From the NCBI GenBank assembly GCA_021803025.1, contig JAJZQV010000015.1, positions 1 to 45,206 on the forward strand: 45,206 nt of DNA, written 5' to 3'. Source of the DNA: Actinomycetes bacterium. Lineage in GTDB: Bacteria > Actinomycetota > Actinomycetes > Propionibacteriales > Propionibacteriaceae. The translations under genes were made by a program, and so were the position numbers. Below are positions 8,395-16,800 of the stretch, piece after piece. Each line of letters begins with the position of its first letter. Position 1 is the stretch's first letter. The notes beneath the pieces are model-generated. The model saw only the letters and a list, made by a program, of their open reading frames with translations. It had not been told where the DNA came from and ran no database searches.

Positions 8395-9456
8395 TCAGCG
8401 CGCGAGCCGCACCGGGATCCGGCGCGTACCGAAGTGGCCGGGCGCCTCGTCGAAGCGCCCCACCAGGGGCGTGCCGCAGTCGGGACACGACCCGTCCGGC
8501 AGGAGCCGGTAGCGCAGGATGTCGTACTGGTCGCGCTCGATGAGCGCGGCCCGGCACCCGGAGCAGTACGTGACCTCGCCGGCCCGGTTCGGGACGTTGC
8601 CCGTGTACACGTGGTGCAGGCCCTCGTCGAGGAGGATCTCGCGGGCCCGGCGAAGCGTCGCTGCGGGAGTCGGGGGTACGTCGCGCATGCGCCAGTCTGG
8701 GTGGAACGCCGTGACGTGGTGCGGGACGTCCGGCCCGAGCTCGGAGCGCACCCACCGGCCCATCGCGTGCAGCTCCTCGTCGGAGTCGTTGTGGCCGGGG
8801 ATGAGGAGCGTCGTGATCTCGACCCAGACGTCTGTCTCGTGCACGAGGTAGGTGAGGGTGTCGAGGACCGGGCCCAGCCGGGTGCCCGTCACCTTGGCGT
8901 AGAAGTCGTCGGTGAACCCCTTGAGGTCGACGTTCGCCGCGTCCATCACCGCGAAGAGGTCACGGCGTGCCTCCGGGTTCACGTACCCGGCGGTCACCGC
9001 GACGGCGTACACGCCGCGCTCATGACAGGCCAGAGCGGTGTCGATGGCGTACTCCGCGAAGATGACCGGGTCGTTGTACGTGAACGCGACGCTCCGGCAG
9101 CCGAGGTCGACCGCCGTCTCGGCGATGACCTCCGGAGACGCCTGGTCCATGAGCCGGTCCATCTCGCGCGCCTTGGACATGTCCCAGTTCTGGCAGAACT
9201 TGCAGCCGAGGTTGCAGCCGGCGGTGCCGAACGACAGCACCGACGTGCCGGGGTGGAAGTGGGCGAGCGGCTTCTTCTCGATGGGGTCGATGCAGAAGCC
9301 GGACGAGCGCCCGTACGTCGTGAGCACCATCTCGTCGCCCTCACGGGCGCGGACGAAGCAGAAGCCGCGCTGCCCGTCTCTCAGTCGGCACTCACGCGGG
9401 CAGAGGTCGCACTGGATGCGGCCGTCGTCGAGCGGATGCCACCAGCGTGCGTTCAT
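8395..9456 (-). CDS. amrS: AmmeMemoRadiSam system radical SAM enzyme
   Basis: A 353-aa radical SAM protein. The AdoMet-cluster motif is C81-x3-C85-x2-C88 within AGCNLGCKFCQNW. An additional N-terminal cysteine set (C16, C19, C23 in CDLCPREC, and C33) and two C-terminal CxxC pairs (TYCSGC and GSCPDCG) suggest a second metal site and a zinc ribbon, as in this family. It is the last gene of a three-gene operon, overlapping the upstream amrA by four bases (ATGA), so the two are translationally coupled. The frame extends upstream through amrA, but the ATG at 9456 is the family-like start (MNARWWHPLDDGR). The reaction is not established; linkage to AMMECR1 and MEMO proteins is the defining context. 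Confidence 0.9.
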   Translation of the reverse strand: MNARWWHPLDDGRIQCDLCPRECRLRDGQRGFCFVRAREGDEMVLTTYGRSSGFCIDPIEKKPLAHFHPGTSVLSFGTAGCNLGCKFCQNWDMSKAREMDRLMDQASPEVIAETAVDLGCRSVAFTYNDPVIFAEYAIDTALACHERGVYAVAVTAGYVNPEARRDLFAVMDAANVDLKGFTDDFYAKVTGTRLGPVLDTLTYLVHETDVWVEITTLLIPGHNDSDEELHAMGRWVRSELGPDVPHHVTAFHPDWRMRDVPPTPAATLRRAREILLDEGLHHVYTGNVPNRAGEVTYCSGCRAALIERDQYDILRYRLLPDGSCPDCGTPLVGRFDEAPGHFGTRRIPVRLAR

Positions 9457-10058
9457 GTCTCCTCGAAAGCCTCGACGGTGTAGCGGGAAAGCCGGACCCG
9501 GTCGTCCCACCAGCCCGAGGGGAGCCCGGCCTTGCGGACGAGGTGCTCCAGGAAGCTGTCGGGGTCGGACAGCGAGTTCCAGACCTGCGGCAGGAACGTG
9601 CTCCGGTGCGTGCCGAACTCGAGGATCACCCCGTCGATGCCCGGACGGAGCCGGGACGCCGCGTCCGCGCGGTCCGTACAGGGGTACGGCTCGGGCGTGG
9701 ACAGCACGGAGACCTCGATGTGTGTGTCCGGCAGCTCTGCCGCGGGCAGCGGCGGGAACCGCGGGTCGTGAAGGGCGGCGTTGACCGCGTTGACGGCCAC
9801 GTCGTCCCGCAGCGGGCGGTGGGCGACGAGGCTGCCGATGCAGCCGCGGAGCTTGCCCGACTGGGTGAGCGTCACGAACGAGGCGCCCTGCGCGTCGAGC
9901 CACCGGCTCTCGTCGTCCGGCGAGGCGGGGGTGGCGCTGGACGCGCTCGGGGAGTGATCGAGACGGCTGTTCTCGGTCGCCGCGCCGATACGAGCCGCGA
10001 TCGCGTCCCGAGCGATCCGGCACAGCACGGGCCCGGCCTCCAGGGGCAGCTCAGGCAT
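9453..10058 (-). CDS. amrA: AmmeMemoRadiSam system protein A (AMMECR1 domain)
   Basis: A 201-aa AMMECR1-domain protein. The invariant LRGCIG motif occurs near residue 81 (KLRGCIGSL), followed by the expected NAALHDPRFPPL segment, then EVSVLSTPEP and GVILEFGTHRSTFLPQVW near the C-terminus. It overlaps amrB upstream by 8 bp and amrS downstream by 4 bp, which indicates coupled translation and a shared pathway. Human AMMECR1 is the namesake; the bacterial biochemical function is unknown. Length matches the family. Confidence 0.9.
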   Translation of the reverse strand: MPELPLEAGPVLCRIARDAIAARIGAATENSRLDHSPSASSATPASPDDESRWLDAQGASFVTLTQSGKLRGCIGSLVAHRPLRDDVAVNAVNAALHDPRFPPLPAAELPDTHIEVSVLSTPEPYPCTDRADAASRLRPGIDGVILEFGTHRSTFLPQVWNSLSDPDSFLEHLVRKAGLPSGWWDDRVRLSRYTVEAFEET

Positions 10059-10857
10059 GGAACTTCCTCAGCCGGAACGCGGCGTAGCCGACGACCCGGT
10101 CTCGCGTGCCCGCTGTGTCCCCGGAGCTGCAGGCGGACAGCAGCTCCGGGACCCAGCTGTGACGCTGGGCGGCGACGAGCGCGCCGTTGAGGGGGTACGC
10201 GCCGCAGGCACGGTCGGTCGGGATGGCGTGGTCGAGCGCGATGACCCGCTCGATCGTGTCCGCGTCGAGCACCGCAGCATCCGCGTACGAGTGGTAGTGG
10301 CTGAGGTCCGTCGAGACCAGCAACGAGGTACCGGGCAGGCGCAGGGCCAGGTCGATGACGTCGGCGACGCTCGTGGCGTCGGCCGCCCCGACGGCGACCG
10401 GTACGACGGGCACGCCAGGTGCGACCACCTGCAGGAACGGCAGCTGGACCTCGAGCGAGTGCTCCTCCGCGTGGACGTCCGGTCGCACGGAGACGGACGG
10501 CGACCTCCGCAGGGCGGCGACCAGCTCGCGGTCCGCCTGGACCATGCCGAGGGGCGTCTCGAAGGCGTCCGCGCCCGACAGTGCGAGCCCCTCCACGTAC
10601 ACGCGGTGGGTCGGCCCGATGAGCAGGATCCGTGACGGCGGGTCATCGCGCAGGGCGGCGTACGCGAACGCCGCCGTGGAGCCGGAGTAGACGTACCCGG
10701 CATGGGGGACGACGAAGCCGGCAGCAGGTACGGGCTCGGCGGTGACCGCATCAGGCTCCGCGCTCACCGCATCGAGGAGCTCTGTCACCATCTGCCTGAG
10801 GCGTGCCGGGTGAGCGGGGTAGAACTGCCCCGCGACGGCAGGCCGCCGTACGGTCAT
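10051..10857 (-). CDS. amrB: AmmeMemoRadiSam system protein B (MEMO family)
   Basis: A 268-aa MEMO-family protein, related in fold to class III extradiol dioxygenases. It begins RRPAVAGQFYP and carries the metal-pocket motifs VVPHAGYVYSG (about residue 49), GPTHR (about 79), HAEEHSLEVQLPFL (about 129) and STDLSHYH (about 182). These histidines correspond to the putative metal site of MEMO proteins. It is the first gene of the operon amrB-amrA-amrS. A TAGATT -10-like hexamer ends exactly 6 nt before the ATG, which indicates a leaderless transcript for the operon. Its substrate is unknown. Confidence 0.9.
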   Translation of the reverse strand: MTVRRPAVAGQFYPAHPARLRQMVTELLDAVSAEPDAVTAEPVPAAGFVVPHAGYVYSGSTAAFAYAALRDDPPSRILLIGPTHRVYVEGLALSGADAFETPLGMVQADRELVAALRRSPSVSVRPDVHAEEHSLEVQLPFLQVVAPGVPVVPVAVGAADATSVADVIDLALRLPGTSLLVSTDLSHYHSYADAAVLDADTIERVIALDHAIPTDRACGAYPLNGALVAAQRHSWVPELLSACSSGDTAGTRDRVVGYAAFRLRKFHA

Positions 10858-13424: not shown

Positions 13425-14804
13425 GTGGGAGAGCCGAGACGCGTCGCGATCATCGGGGCAGGACCGTCCGGCATCTTCGCGGCCCAGGCGCTCCTGGCCC
13501 ACCCCGGAGTGGTGGTGGACCTCTACGACCGGCTGCCCACGCCGTACGGGCTGCTCCGGTACGGCGTCGCCCCGGACCACACGTCAATCAAGGGCGTGGG
13601 CGAGGCGCTGGCACGGGTGTTCGACTCGCCGGCCGTACGGTTCCTCGGCTACGTGGACTTCGGTAAGGACGTGACCCGCGAGGAGCTGCTCGGTGCGTAC
13701 GACGCGGTCATCTACGCGACAGGCGCGGCCGAGGACGCCGAGATGGCCGTACCGGGCGAGAACCTTCCGGGGAGCCAGTCCGCCCGCTCGTTCGTCGCCT
13801 GGTACTCGGGCCATCCCGACGCCGTCGCCTTCCGCCTCACCGGTGTGCGCTCGGTCGTGACCGTCGGCGTCGGCAACGTCGCGGTCGACGTGTCGCGCAT
13901 CCTGTGCAAGACGGCTGCGGAGCTCACGCCGACCGACATGCCCGACCCGGTGCTCGACGAGCTGCGCGGCCACGTCGTGAGGGACGTCTGGATCGTGGGC
14001 CGCCGTGGGCCGCAGCACGCCTCCTTCACGACGCCGGAGCTCCGCGAGCTGCTCACGCTGCCCGACGTGCAGCCGGTGGTCCACGACGTCCTCGACGACA
14101 TCGACGTCACGACGCTCGAGCGGCGTCCGCGGGCGAACGTCGAGGCGTTACGGGTGGCGAAGGAGCGTGCCGTGCCGGACGCGTCCATGCGTCTGCACCT
14201 CCTGTTCTGGCACCGGCCCGTCGAGATCCGGGGCAGTCGCCGCGTCTCCGGCATCACGCTCGAGCGGACGGCGCTCGACGCCGAGGGGCGACTGGTCGGC
14301 ACGGGCGAGGAGCGTACGGTCCAGTGCGAGCTCGTGCTGCGAGCCATCGGCTACCGGGCCCGCCCGTTGCCGGGCGTGTCCTTCGACGAGGCGCGCGGCG
14401 TCATCCCGAACGCGTCGGGACGCGTCCTCGACTCGTGCGGGCTCGTGCTGCCCCGCGAGTACGCCGTCGGGTGGATCAAGCGGGGACCGACAGGAGTGAT
14501 CGGGACGAACAAGTCCGACGCCGCCGAGACAGTGGCCGCGCTCGTCGCCGATCTGGGGATCGACGCTCCGGCGAGCGAGGTCCCGCCGGAGGTCTTGGGC
14601 GACCGGGCTCCGCACGCCGACGTCGACACGCTTCTGCGTCGCAAGGGCCTGCGTCCGACCACGTACGCCGACTGGATGAGGATCGACGCCGCAGAGACCG
14701 CGCTCGGCGGGCGGCACGGACGGGCGCGGACCAAGATCGCGACCTGGGGCGAGCTCCTCGACATCGCGAGGGGACGGTCGGGTTCTGGGCAGTCGTCGCG
14801 CTGA
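13425..14804 (+). CDS. FprA-type ferredoxin/adrenodoxin NADP+ reductase
   Basis: A 459-aa FAD/NADP oxidoreductase of the adrenodoxin-reductase type (mycobacterial FprA, 456 aa). The FAD-binding fingerprint VAIIGAGPSGIFAAQ is at the N-terminus, followed by YDRLPTPYGLLRYGVAPDH, a signature of this subfamily. The NADP-binding loop VVTVGVGNVAVDVSRIL lies near residue 150 and VGRRGPQHASFT near 192. The C-terminus carries GWIKRGPTGVIGTNKSDA, which contacts FAD. It would transfer electrons between NADPH and ferredoxin. The frame is open upstream, but GTG at 13425 starts just before the FAD motif and lies 6 nt behind a -10 box. It is monocistronic and followed by the duplicated noncoding element. Confidence 0.9.
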   Translation: MGEPRRVAIIGAGPSGIFAAQALLAHPGVVVDLYDRLPTPYGLLRYGVAPDHTSIKGVGEALARVFDSPAVRFLGYVDFGKDVTREELLGAYDAVIYATGAAEDAEMAVPGENLPGSQSARSFVAWYSGHPDAVAFRLTGVRSVVTVGVGNVAVDVSRILCKTAAELTPTDMPDPVLDELRGHVVRDVWIVGRRGPQHASFTTPELRELLTLPDVQPVVHDVLDDIDVTTLERRPRANVEALRVAKERAVPDASMRLHLLFWHRPVEIRGSRRVSGITLERTALDAEGRLVGTGEERTVQCELVLRAIGYRARPLPGVSFDEARGVIPNASGRVLDSCGLVLPREYAVGWIKRGPTGVIGTNKSDAAETVAALVADLGIDAPASEVPPEVLGDRAPHADVDTLLRRKGLRPTTYADWMRIDAAETALGGRHGRARTKIATWGELLDIARGRSGSGQSSR

Positions 14805-14807
14805 GCT

Positions 14808-15133
14808 GTGGACGAGTCGGTGGATTCCTTGTGCAGACTGTGTGGGCGAAATGCCGTCGCGAGCGTGACGGCCTGTGTACAGAAGAAAAGCCGAAGAAGA
14901 TTCCTCAGAATCACTTGACGGGCGCTGGGCGAGACCGCTAGGAATAACCCATCGCAAGCCCGCAAGGAGAATTGCGATGAAAGGTTCAACGAAGTGCCGT
15001 GTACGACGGGTTCGCCCGTCGCGCCGCCCGATGGCGGGCCGTGGGGGCATGGAGTGGGTCTTTCGATCGGAAGGCCATCGTCCGGTCACTGGAAGGGCCC
15101 GTCGAACGACTCATACTCGCTCGCCGGGCCCTT
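14808..15133 (+). ncRNA. Candidate structured RNA element, copy 1
   Basis: First of two diverged tandem copies in a 937-nt gene-free stretch (14805-15741). Conserved landmarks in order are paired GTGGAC-N6-GTGGAT (14808-14825), the block TTCCTCAGAATCACTTG (14901-14917), a CC-GCAA-GG tetraloop (14960-14967) inside the perfect outer stem ATCGCAA/TTGCGAT, a 7-bp stem CGACGGG/CCCGTCG capped by TTCG (15004-15021), and the terminal 41-nt hairpin (15093-15133). The GNRA and UUCG loops favour the plus strand. It is AT-richer than the genes around it and has no coding-like frame. No known RNA family is recognised. It could be an RNA gene or a DNA element bound by proteins. Confidence 0.45.
15093..15133. 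repeat. Terminal hairpin of copy 1
   Basis: The 9-bp stem AAGGGCCCG/CGGGCCCTT is followed inward by a U-C mismatch, CGA/TCG, an A-C mismatch, CGA/TCG and the 7-nt loop CTCATAC. It differs from the copy at 15541-15581 at one base only. On the minus strand the A-C mismatch becomes a G-U pair. It may serve as terminator, RNA domain or dispersed repeat. Confidence 0.8.
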
Positions 15134-15254
15134 TCGCACGCGCAGATCTTGCGTACCCTCACGCCCGCTCCCGCCCAACGGTGGCCGGCGGCCGCCCGAG
15201 GAGCACCTGGCGGGGCGACCGCGCCTGTCTCCACCGCCGCGCGGAGCTGACCTT

Positions 15255-15581
15255 GTGGACAACCCTGTGGATACGCGGTGGAGAATAGGTGCACAACCGG
15301 GACCTGACGGTGCGTGAAAGAACGCCCTGAATTCCACGGATGTAGTTCCTCGAAATCACTTGCGCAGAAACCGCCCGAGGGGATAGAACTCTCTTACGCG
15401 ATTCCGCAAGGAAAAGCGGGGCAACACGAAGGATTGATCGGCGCCCGAGGACTTCGGTCCGAGGAAGTTCGCACGGTGGGTGCGCTGCCGTTCCGGATGT
15501 CGAGTTGCCGGTCCGGCGACCACCGCGCTGACCGAAACAGAAGGGCCCGTCGAACGACTCATACTCGCTCGTCGGGCCCTT
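15255..15581 (+). ncRNA. Candidate structured RNA element, copy 2
   Basis: Second copy, offset 442-448 nt from the first at every landmark: GTGGAC-N6-GTGGAT at 15255-15272, TTCCTCGAAATCACTTG at 15346-15362, CC-GCAA-GG at 15404-15411 (stem TTCC/GGAA), GGAC-TTCG-GTCC at 15449-15460, and the terminal hairpin at 15541-15581. Between landmarks the sequence has diverged, but spacing is kept within a few nucleotides, which argues for constraint on structure. The first box, TTGTGGACAA, and the second, TGTGGATAC, resemble actinobacterial DnaA boxes. The SPFH gene begins 160 nt downstream. Function unknown. Confidence 0.45.
15541..15581. repeat. Terminal hairpin of copy 2
   Basis: Same 9-bp stem, symmetric mismatches and CTCATAC loop as 15093-15133; 40 of 41 bases are identical. 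The single difference (T for C at 15572, opposite T15550) lies at a mismatch position, so the fold is unchanged. Confidence 0.8.
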
Positions 15582-15741
15582 CGCCTTGGCCGGCCGGACG
15601 GCGGTCGCCCAGGCGAGGTGCGACCGCGAAGGATGCGTCCGGTGTGCCCGTGGCCTGCGGGCATCCGTGCGGGATTGCGGGGGCGGTCACGGCGGGAGGC
15701 CCAGCTTCCTAGACTCGATCGTGTCGAGATCGGAGCTGTAC

Positions 15742-16800
15742 ATGACCAGCCAGTCCCAGTTCGAGCAAGCACCTCAGCACGCCCCCTCCCCGCCCCTGGC
15801 GGAGGAGGGCTACCAGCCGCCCGTGACCGAGCCCTTTGCCTATCCGGCTGCCGCCGGCTCGTACCCCGATCAGTCCCTTCAGGTCCCGGAGCCAGGCATC
15901 GCCACGGCGACCCCAGTCGGCCACGAGGGCGTGCGCGTCAACGTCGAGGAGCGGCCGGCCTGGTCCATGCCCGGTGGAGCCGCGCTGGTCGGGCTGCTCG
16001 TCCTCGGCCTCGTCGCCGTCGGGCTGGGCGCGTTCGGAGCTGTGATCAGCGTCCCGCTCGTCACGATCCTCGGGGTCGTCCTCTTCGTCGCCATGTACGT
16101 CGGGCTGACGTCCCTCACCGTCATACAGCCCGGTGAGACGAAGGTGCTGCAGTTCCTCGGCGGCTACGTGGGCACGATCCGCAGGCCCGGGCTGCAGCTC
16201 ACCACGCCCTTCACGACGAAGCGCCGGGTGTCGGTGAAGGTCAACAACTTCGAGACCCACGAGCTCAAGGTCAACGACTTGGCGGGCAACCCGGTCAACA
16301 TCGCCGCGATCATCGTCTGGCAGGTCTCCGACACCGCGAAGGCGACGTTCGCGGTGGAGAACTCGCAGCACTTCGTCGAGGTGCAGGCCGAGGCGGCCCT
16401 CCGGCACGTGGCGTCGACCCACCCGTACGACAACGCCGACCCCGGTGAGGAGAGCCTGCGCGGCTCGACCGAGCTCGTCGCCGCGGAGCTCGCCCAGGAG
16501 GTCGCGGCGCGCGTCGCGATCGCGGGCATCGAGATCGTGGAGGCGCGGATCAGCTCGCTGGCGTACGCGCCGGAGATCGCACACGCGATGCTGCAGCGCC
16601 AGCAGGCGGCCGCCGTGATCGCGGCGCGCTCGATGATCGTCGAGGGTGCGGTGGGCATGGTCGAGCAGGCGCTGCGCCGCCTGGAGACGGACTCGGTGGT
16701 CCAGATGGACGAGGAGCGCAAGGCGCAGATGGTCGCCAACCTGCTGCTCGTGCTGTGCGGCGACTCGCGGGCGACGCCCGTGATCAACACGAACTCGTAG
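15742..16800 (+). CDS. SPFH (band 7/prohibitin-like) membrane protein
   Basis: A 352-aa membrane-anchored protein. An N-terminal cytoplasmic, proline-rich, low-complexity region (about 1-70) is followed by two adjacent hydrophobic segments ([17 protein letters not shown] and [18 protein letters not shown]), then the SPFH domain from about residue 125 ([50 protein letters not shown]) and a helical tail ([20 protein letters not shown]). Such proteins oligomerise at the membrane as scaffolds. ATG at 15742 has GGAG 6-7 nt upstream. A TAGACT -10 box at 15710-15715 stands 5 nt before an in-frame GTG at 15721, so a leaderless start seven codons earlier is an alternative. Confidence 0.87.

Follow-up and report, generated by a model that had tools for sequence, protein, structure and literature searches.

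Two predicted tandem small-RNA genes in a Propionibacteriaceae genome and their family in the order Propionibacteriales

The locus and its two tandem copies

The window, that is, the whole stretch of 45,206 nt that was analysed, contains on its forward strand a gene for an FprA-like pyridine-nucleotide-disulphide oxidoreductase (an ORF at 13425 to 14804; Pfam Pyr_redox_2, E 1.4e-12) and, downstream of it, a gene for an SPFH/Band 7 protein (15742 to 16800; Pfam Band_7, E 1.2e-21 on 15586 to 16800), the start codons of both having been chosen by us. With the start of the SPFH gene taken at the ATG at 15742, the two are separated by a gene-free gap of 937 nt (14805 to 15741), as a preceding sequence-only reading had stated. 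Elsewhere in the window (8395 to 10857), we could notice by eye, from the translations, ORFs resembling an AMMECR1/MEMO1/radical-SAM (AmmeMemoRadiSam) cluster.

The sequence-only reading had described five landmarks in the gap that recur in the same order at offsets of 442 to 448 nt, and we confirmed all of them: the pair GTGGAC-N6-GTGGAT (14808 and 15255, offset 447), the block TTCCTC..AATCACTTG (14901 and 15346, offset 445), the CC-GCAA-GG element (14960 and 15404, offset 444), the TTCG of a TTCG-capped stem (15011 and 15453, offset 442), and the terminal hairpins (15092 to 15133 and 15540 to 15581, offset 448), which are 42 nt long and 98% identical. The gap between the two protein genes appears to hold two tandem paralogous small-RNA genes, both predicted on the forward strand. 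RNA1 (14951 to 15136, about 186 nt) is matched by our covariance model R3 from 14945 to 15135 with 118.9 bits, and RNA2 (15396 to 15583, about 188 nt) from 15389 to 15583 with 119.1 bits; the ends of both are deduced, those of RNA1 from the -10 box and the terminator. The likeness of the two copies exceeds chance, since a model built on copy 2 only (R2) detects copy 1 (64.7 bits, E 6e-20) and one built on copy 1 only (R1) detects copy 2 (62.9 bits, E 8e-16), scores that owe part of their height to the shared terminator. The earlier suggestion of a duplicated small-RNA gene pair is thus supported, with a predicted promoter and terminator for each copy and helices that co-vary, whereas the 250 to 330 nt guessed for the transcripts give way to the shorter lengths above. 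The landmarks had also been taken for one structured element: the GCAA hairpin, the UUCG hairpin and the terminator do fall within the RNA, whereas the GTGGA pairs and the TTCCTC block are DNA upstream of the predicted transcripts.

When the copies are aligned separately, the conserved block before each RNA reads as a promoter, with the TTCCTC block running into the -35 box. The predicted promoter of RNA1 (14915 to 14944, forward strand) consists of a -35 box TTGACG (14915 to 14920), an 18-bp spacer and a -10 box TAGGAA (14939 to 14944), and that of RNA2 (15360 to 15389, forward strand) of TTGCGC (15360 to 15365), again an 18-bp spacer, and TAGAAC (15384 to 15389). A promoter of the form TTGNN-N17/18-TA.., a feature that lies outside the covariance model, directly precedes 82 of the 99 homologues described below, versus 0 of 99 in a control 60 nt upstream.

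The GTGGAC-N6-GTGGAT pairs are members of helically phased GTGGA arrays upstream of the promoters. On the forward strand, the array of RNA1 (14807 to 14846) comprises TGTGGA at 14807, GGTGGA at 14819, TGTGCA at 14830 and TGTGGG at 14841, 11 to 12 bp apart, and that of RNA2 (15254 to 15297) comprises TGTGGA at 15254 and 15266, GGTGGA at 15277 and GGTGCA at 15288, spaced by 12, 11 and 11 bp. Upstream of the homologues, TGTGGA occurs 148 times on either strand (11.4 in shuffled sequence; 61 of 99 loci) and GACACGC 58 times (3.9 in shuffled sequence; 40 of 99 loci). The sites run mostly in one direction (GTGGA 167, TCCAC 44), and the GTGGA sites lie mostly 70 to 140 nt before the RNA, with neighbours 21 bp (34 cases), 11 bp (13) or 12 bp (10) apart, as would be expected of a protein binding one face of the helix. 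TGTGGA is the core of a DnaA box; as the perfect box TGTGGAYAA is found at merely 4 of the 99 loci, and the array matches the core alone, we do not claim DnaA. The motif GACAC contained in GACACGC is that of WhiA in Streptomyces, according to the cited passages of the source (PMC3781837). DnaA and WhiA are candidate names by motif, and we do not assert that either acts at these arrays.

When 57 genomes were searched at the nucleotide level, 12 gave matches at E<=0.001, namely the genome of the window, six others of its genus, and five that were left uncounted, with matches of merely 28 to 52 nt. The tandem locus is present in all six other genomes of the genus; four of these genomes show both copies, with part of RNA2 given as N in G005, and G004 and G006 present a single whole copy at a contig end. 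ORFs through the copies (e.g., 14875 to 15288) are broken among these relatives by indels of 1 and 2 nt, so that no reading frame is conserved; as these indels are not multiples of three, they speak against a conserved protein spanning both copies, which the sequence-only reading had named as evidence against its proposal. Similarly, a search for a type I toxin-antitoxin arrangement gave no toxin ORF, and no ORF is conserved across either copy among the same-genus relatives. R3 finds just two copies in the window's own genome and no third. Near matches in that genome (G000:C143) and in a relative (G002:C95) were rejected as further copies, both lying within coding DNA, and so was the third of the three occurrences of ACTCATACT in the own genome, two of which belong to this locus. 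In another genome of the genus (G003), we observed two extra CUCAUAC-loop RNAs outside the tandem locus (L127 and L128), one of them apparently of about 90 nt. Among named genomes, an 18-nt piece of the terminator matched 10 stretches. Six belong to metagenome-assembled genomes of the window's genus, which carry the labels Propionibacteriaceae, Propionibacteriales or Actinomycetota, and one to Micropruina sp. SSC1; the other three, in unrelated bacteria, appear to be chance matches.

Predicted fold and distribution of the family

From starts near 14951 and 15396, the predicted transcripts run through a GCAA hairpin, a UUCG hairpin, further stems and an intrinsic terminator ending at about 15136 and 15583, respectively. 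In RNA1, helix P1 with its GCAA tetraloop (14951 to 14978) and helix P2b with its UUCG loop (15005 to 15020) are drawn from covariation and alignment; the strand CGAUGGC in the loop of P3 (15029 to 15035) can form 7 bp with GCCAUCG (15074 to 15080) in the loop of hairpin P4 (15065 to 15087), and the terminator hairpin P5 (15092 to 15136) carries the loop CUCAUAC at 15110 to 15116. The corresponding elements of RNA2, also on the forward strand, are P1 with GCAA (15397 to 15418), P2b with UUCG (15449 to 15460), the kissing strand CGGUGG (15474 to 15479), able to form 6 bp with CCACCG (15520 to 15525) in the loop of the P4 region (15510 to 15533), and P5 (15540 to 15583) with CUCAUAC at 15558 to 15564.

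In an alignment of 18 diverse members (A5), aligned from sequence alone and itself part of the basis on which the 32-pair structure was chosen, 86.3% of the cells are paired (38.9 to 48.1% when the structure is slid) and 25 of the 32 pairs show double-sided changes (3 to 12 when slid). Model R3 was built from A5, and the larger alignment A6 holds 99 R3 matches at E<=1e-7 from 92 sources (the window and 91 of 240 loci), with repeats of the same place and some further loci left out. There, 90.8% of the cells are paired (34.6 to 53.5% when slid) and 30 of the 32 pairs show double changes (11 to 17 when slid), figures that lean toward pairing because A6 was fitted to R3. Close relatives are numerous among the 99 homologues, so that the counts do not represent independent events. 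We show by sequence comparison that helices P1, P2b and P5 covary and that two hairpin loops are conserved as complementary. The covariance models and homologue search for which the sequence-only reading had called thus yielded homologues with covarying stems, and its view of an RNA under structural constraint is borne out.

The complementary loops of P3 and P4 are of the GGUGAYG/CRUCACC type. Their kissing complementarity, which is part of R3, reaches at least 6 bp in 83 of 96 members versus 14.6% at random, and the two copies of the window keep it with different letters. The P3 stem, of at least 5 bp in 57 of 96 members, and the P4 stem, in 55 of 96, compare with 24% at random places and lie outside R3; P3, P4 and the kissing helix are all of at least 5 bp together in just 34 of 96. 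An intramolecular kissing loop is likely in these RNAs. No single long conserved hairpin was found: covariation supports P1, P2b, the kissing helix and P5, and the stems of P3 and P4 stand above random.

At its gathering threshold, Rfam 15 left the RNAs unmatched in the window, in 18 loci and in 12 further loci, its matches being tRNA genes outside the RNAs (one in the window, none in the 18 loci, three in the 12), and a relaxed scan of the gap (E<=10) gave nothing better than E 0.8; the sequence-only reading, which had recognised no known family, agrees with these results. The Rfam library includes 6S models, and the 6S covariance model found no match either at gathering or in relaxed scans at E<=10 (window) and E<=2 (two homologues). 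ARAGORN did not call the RNAs tRNA in the 24 loci scanned. Furthermore, literature searches on sRNAs of Propionibacterium, tandem actinobacterial sRNAs, sRNAs of Kribbella and Nocardioides, and the letters of the loop returned no description of these RNAs among the matches listed, the P. acnes supplementary list aside. Each copy has its own predicted promoter and terminator, and the two belong to a family of the order Propionibacteriales that is absent from Rfam 15.

Models R1 and R2 also match members in other genera. With the limit at E<=0.01, R3 gives matches in 90 of the 197 genomes of Propionibacteriaceae and in 76 of the 117 sampled across the order; since the weak matches (about 1e-7 to 1e-2) are mostly chance, only one of 20 re-read stretches having a CUCAUAC-loop hairpin, and that one without a promoter by our pattern, the family tallies use E<=1e-8. 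At this threshold, R3 matches 70 of 197 Propionibacteriaceae genomes and 10 of 29 genera, as we counted from the rows, and the remaining 127 genomes are without a strong match at the stricter filters of Infernal. Sampling within the order gave 65 of 117 genomes, ten of the window's own family and 37 and 18 of two further families; two genomes of another family were matched with E above 0.001. A single genome holds up to four R3 matches. One member lies in a genome of Micropruina, a genus that has cultured species. In a genus with no strong family match, we observed a long CUCAUAC-loop hairpin (L257, G024, position 581). With regard to carriage by phages, one 19-nt terminator pattern gave no matches in viral contigs.

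No fixed neighbour of the RNA genes was found among 20 Pfam-scanned proteins from the window and the loci of 12 other genomes, whose names include RecO, LamB/YcsF, biotin carboxylase, sigma factor, DinB-type polymerase, SpoIIE-type phosphatase, ABC-2 permease, acyltransferase, ParA-type ATPase and GNAT; by eye, MarR-like genes stand beside some loci. All 11 stretches from genus g8 (L241 to L251, from 11 genomes), which were fetched because R3 showed a pair there, have the two copies facing each other with loops 0.6 to 4.1 kb apart; in 8 of the 11, an ORF of 828 to 879 aa lies between them, identified by Pfam in L241 as LuxR-type. In the same genus, we also noticed an OsmC-like ORF between the copies in some stretches (assigned to OsmC by Pfam in the case of L242), a third copy of the RNA gene in L247, and, in L246 (G155, from 4702), an FprA-like gene recognised by eye that adjoins an RNA copy as in the window. 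In three genomes of genus g28 (L207, L210 and L215), which belongs to the further family with 18 matched genomes, a tRNA-Leu(GAG) gene follows the RNA gene by about 53 nt on the same strand.

The terminator loop and its putative partner

The strongest feature of the family, missing from the sequence-only reading, is the invariant loop CUCAUAC. In the DNA, it reads CTCATAC in 97 of 99 homologues and CTCATAT in two; six of its columns are identical in 99 of 99, whereas five standard types of pair are represented at each of the four stem positions next to it. The closing pair (A-U 78, G-C 10, U-A 3, C-G 2 and G-U 2 of 99, that is, 95 standard) varies yet pairs, so that the loop is of exactly 7 nt. 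The predicted terminator stem thus keeps changing and co-varying around a 7-nt loop that is near-invariant. All training sequences of R3 carry the loop, and a match without it would lose bits; 30 of the 99 members score above 100 bits and would be detectable even without the loop, and none of these is without it. Some further members have, by eye, a very different body and have kept the loop. The CUCA of the loop fits the YUNR U-turn.

At many loci, the sRNA terminator is accompanied, at a distance of about 100 to 600 bp, by a second hairpin whose loop reads CTCATAC/GTATGAG (L125, L126, L130, L134 to L136, L142, L144, L179, L183 to L188, L191 to L196, L048 and L080). These hairpins share the stem of the terminator, and one of their strands reads GUAUGAG; as they are near-palindromes, their strand is ambiguous. 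In some, a -10-like TAGAAAT or TAGACAT stands directly before the GUAUGAG strand. The pattern TA[GC]A[AC]NT, chosen after looking, occurs there in 12 of 47 second hairpins, which include ordinary terminators missed by the promoter pattern, versus 1 of 121 sRNA terminators read backwards. The window has GTATGAG nowhere but on the reverse strand of its two terminators, and searches with the loop seed in the own genome and the window gave no usable target. In genus g34, a GTATGAG hairpin was considered as an mRNA leader and rejected by eye, because the TAGAGT-like box of the divergent GNAT gene, an apparent leaderless promoter, sits just before the GTG, beyond the hairpin.

We infer that the RNAs are transcribed, and a regulatory role is likely because the seven-letter loop at their tail is near-always identical. 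As judged from sequence, they have the marks of a trans-acting sRNA: an independent unit, no overlap with genes, a conserved structure, and an exposed invariant element. It is possible to hypothesize, with a confidence that we would set at about the halfway mark, that they form an undescribed family of free-standing, trans-acting sRNAs that recognise a partner, most probably a second RNA, through their invariant U-turn loop. Each gene would give an RNA of about 186 to 188 nt from its own housekeeping-type promoter, located behind a phased GTGGA array, and each RNA would end at its own intrinsic terminator. The body would be a compactly folded scaffold, shielding the RNA and presenting its loop, and the U-turn loop (YUNR: C-U-C-A) might then bind GUAUGAG in trans on one or more partner RNAs. 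The pAD1 transcripts RNA I and RNA II are described as meeting at the loops of their terminators (PMC7472228), and by analogy the pairing with GUAUGAG would probably be a loop-loop contact, through which the partner RNAs would be regulated.

The GUAUGAG-reading hairpins beside many of the RNA genes count in favour of an RNA partner, whereas the conservation of six of the seven letters across three families, which would equally fit a protein partner, counts against it. In the main alternative, which is possible albeit rather unlikely, the CUCAUAC loop would be the site of a conserved RNA-binding protein that the several copies per genome would titrate as decoys or scaffolds. The near-absolute conservation of the loop across families, also in members whose bodies differ by eye, and the presence of up to four R3 matches per genome would suit such a role; however, each RNA offers one loop, unlike multi-site sponges, no protein is known to bind it, and the nearby complementary hairpins point to RNA. 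A further role of the loop is suggested by its letters. The CAU anticodon loop of tRNA-Met, tRNA-fMet and tRNA-Ile2 is CUCAUAA, which equals the six invariant positions in a loop that is likewise of exactly 7 nt and whose closing pair is free to vary. The terminator loop might thus mimic this anticodon loop and engage tRNA-acting enzymes, toxins or the decoding site, yet we saw the likeness only in hindsight, the seventh position holds C where the anticodon loop has A, a long terminator takes the place of the 5-bp arm, and ARAGORN gave no tRNA call for the RNAs in the 24 loci, so that we regard the mimicry as very doubtful.

The opposite stance, that only the terminators matter, the remainder being a leader under no selection and the loop an element favoured for termination or as a bidirectional insulator, could draw on the second hairpins with the same stem that occur without an obvious RNA body; it is highly improbable, as P1 and P2b covary, the promoters are conserved, the body has kissing loops, and ACTCATACT is so rare in the own genome. 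A divergent RNA of the Ms1/6S type, binding RNA polymerase, would be of comparable size (186 to 188 nt versus about 230 and about 300 nt) with hairpins near both ends, and Ms1 is predicted in Kribbella, Nocardioides, Aeromicrobium and Microlunatus in the cited sections of PMC9130861. Two of the broad synteny words listed for Ms1 also have counterparts at single loci, an oxidoreductase in the window and a ParA/MinD-type ATPase in L134. Nevertheless, the covarying junction with kissing hairpins differs from the long hairpin with a central bubble described for Ms1 in the corresponding portion of PMC4191392, and none of the 20 flanking proteins scanned is a HAD hydrolase, which makes this identity quite unlikely.

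Returning to the trans-acting sRNAs with an RNA partner, a wider speculation, which we consider unlikely, is that they represent a widespread actinobacterial RNA class in which the intrinsic terminator would serve at the same time as a universal means of recognition, its anticodon-like 7-nt U-turn loop coupling members with different bodies to one common partner under the control of the phased arrays. If this were true, the common partner could be, for example, the decoding/tRNA machinery or a global regulatory RNA.

Comparison with known RNAs

We conclude that the RNA family is new, that it belongs to a known kind, probably that of the trans-acting sRNAs, and that its architecture is unusual. 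To our knowledge, few actinobacterial sRNA families have been described outside Streptomyces and Mycobacterium. The present one, with a well-supported fold, occurs in more than half of the sampled genomes of its order (65 of 117 at E<=1e-8), and its single invariant loop makes the partner directly testable by mutation and pull-down.

At one g34 locus (L134), the ATPase of the ParA/MinD type lies downstream of the RNA gene, as identified by Pfam. This ATPase is of the same superfamily as CpaE. By eye, no HAD hydrolase was recognised in the ORF starts listed for other loci. Both proteins matter for the comparison with Ms1 (MTS2823, scr3559), the actinobacterial RNA-polymerase-binding sRNA of about 230 nt in Streptomyces coelicolor and about 300 nt in Mycobacterium smegmatis (PMC9130861, PMC4191392), whose gene neighbours are given as HAD hydrolase and CpaE, with broad synteny words that include oxidoreductase and chromosome partitioning, in the relevant passages of PMC9130861. 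As far as those passages describe it, Ms1 resembles the new RNA in being a free-standing intergenic actinobacterial sRNA with a sigma-A-like promoter and an intrinsic terminator. Different from Ms1, the new RNA folds, by prediction, into a junction with kissing hairpins, occurs in tandem or multiple copies, carries the invariant CUCAUAC loop and measures 186 to 188 nt. Its distinction from Ms1 is drawn from such described features as the fold and the neighbours, and a kinship of the two is conceivable.

The recently found CoRP RNA is also a structured actinobacterial RNA and binds RNA polymerase; however, its description in the cited text gives 516 nt, close homologues only in Corynebacterium, and a position between tRNA genes (PMC11077062). 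The actinobacterial sodF_sRNA of Rfam (RF02790) had the lowest E in the relaxed scans of two homologues (0.12 and 0.34), but we rejected it as a chance match, with about half the gathering score, on the opposite strand, at the terminator. A parallel in working is that of pAD1 RNA I and RNA II, for which the passages at hand describe a first contact at the loops of the intrinsic terminators, aided by a YUNR U-turn (PMC7472228). RNA II is an antitoxin of about 40 nt that overlaps the toxin mRNA, whereas the new RNA is structured, of about 190 nt, and has no toxin gene found with it; the resemblance would therefore be one of working only.
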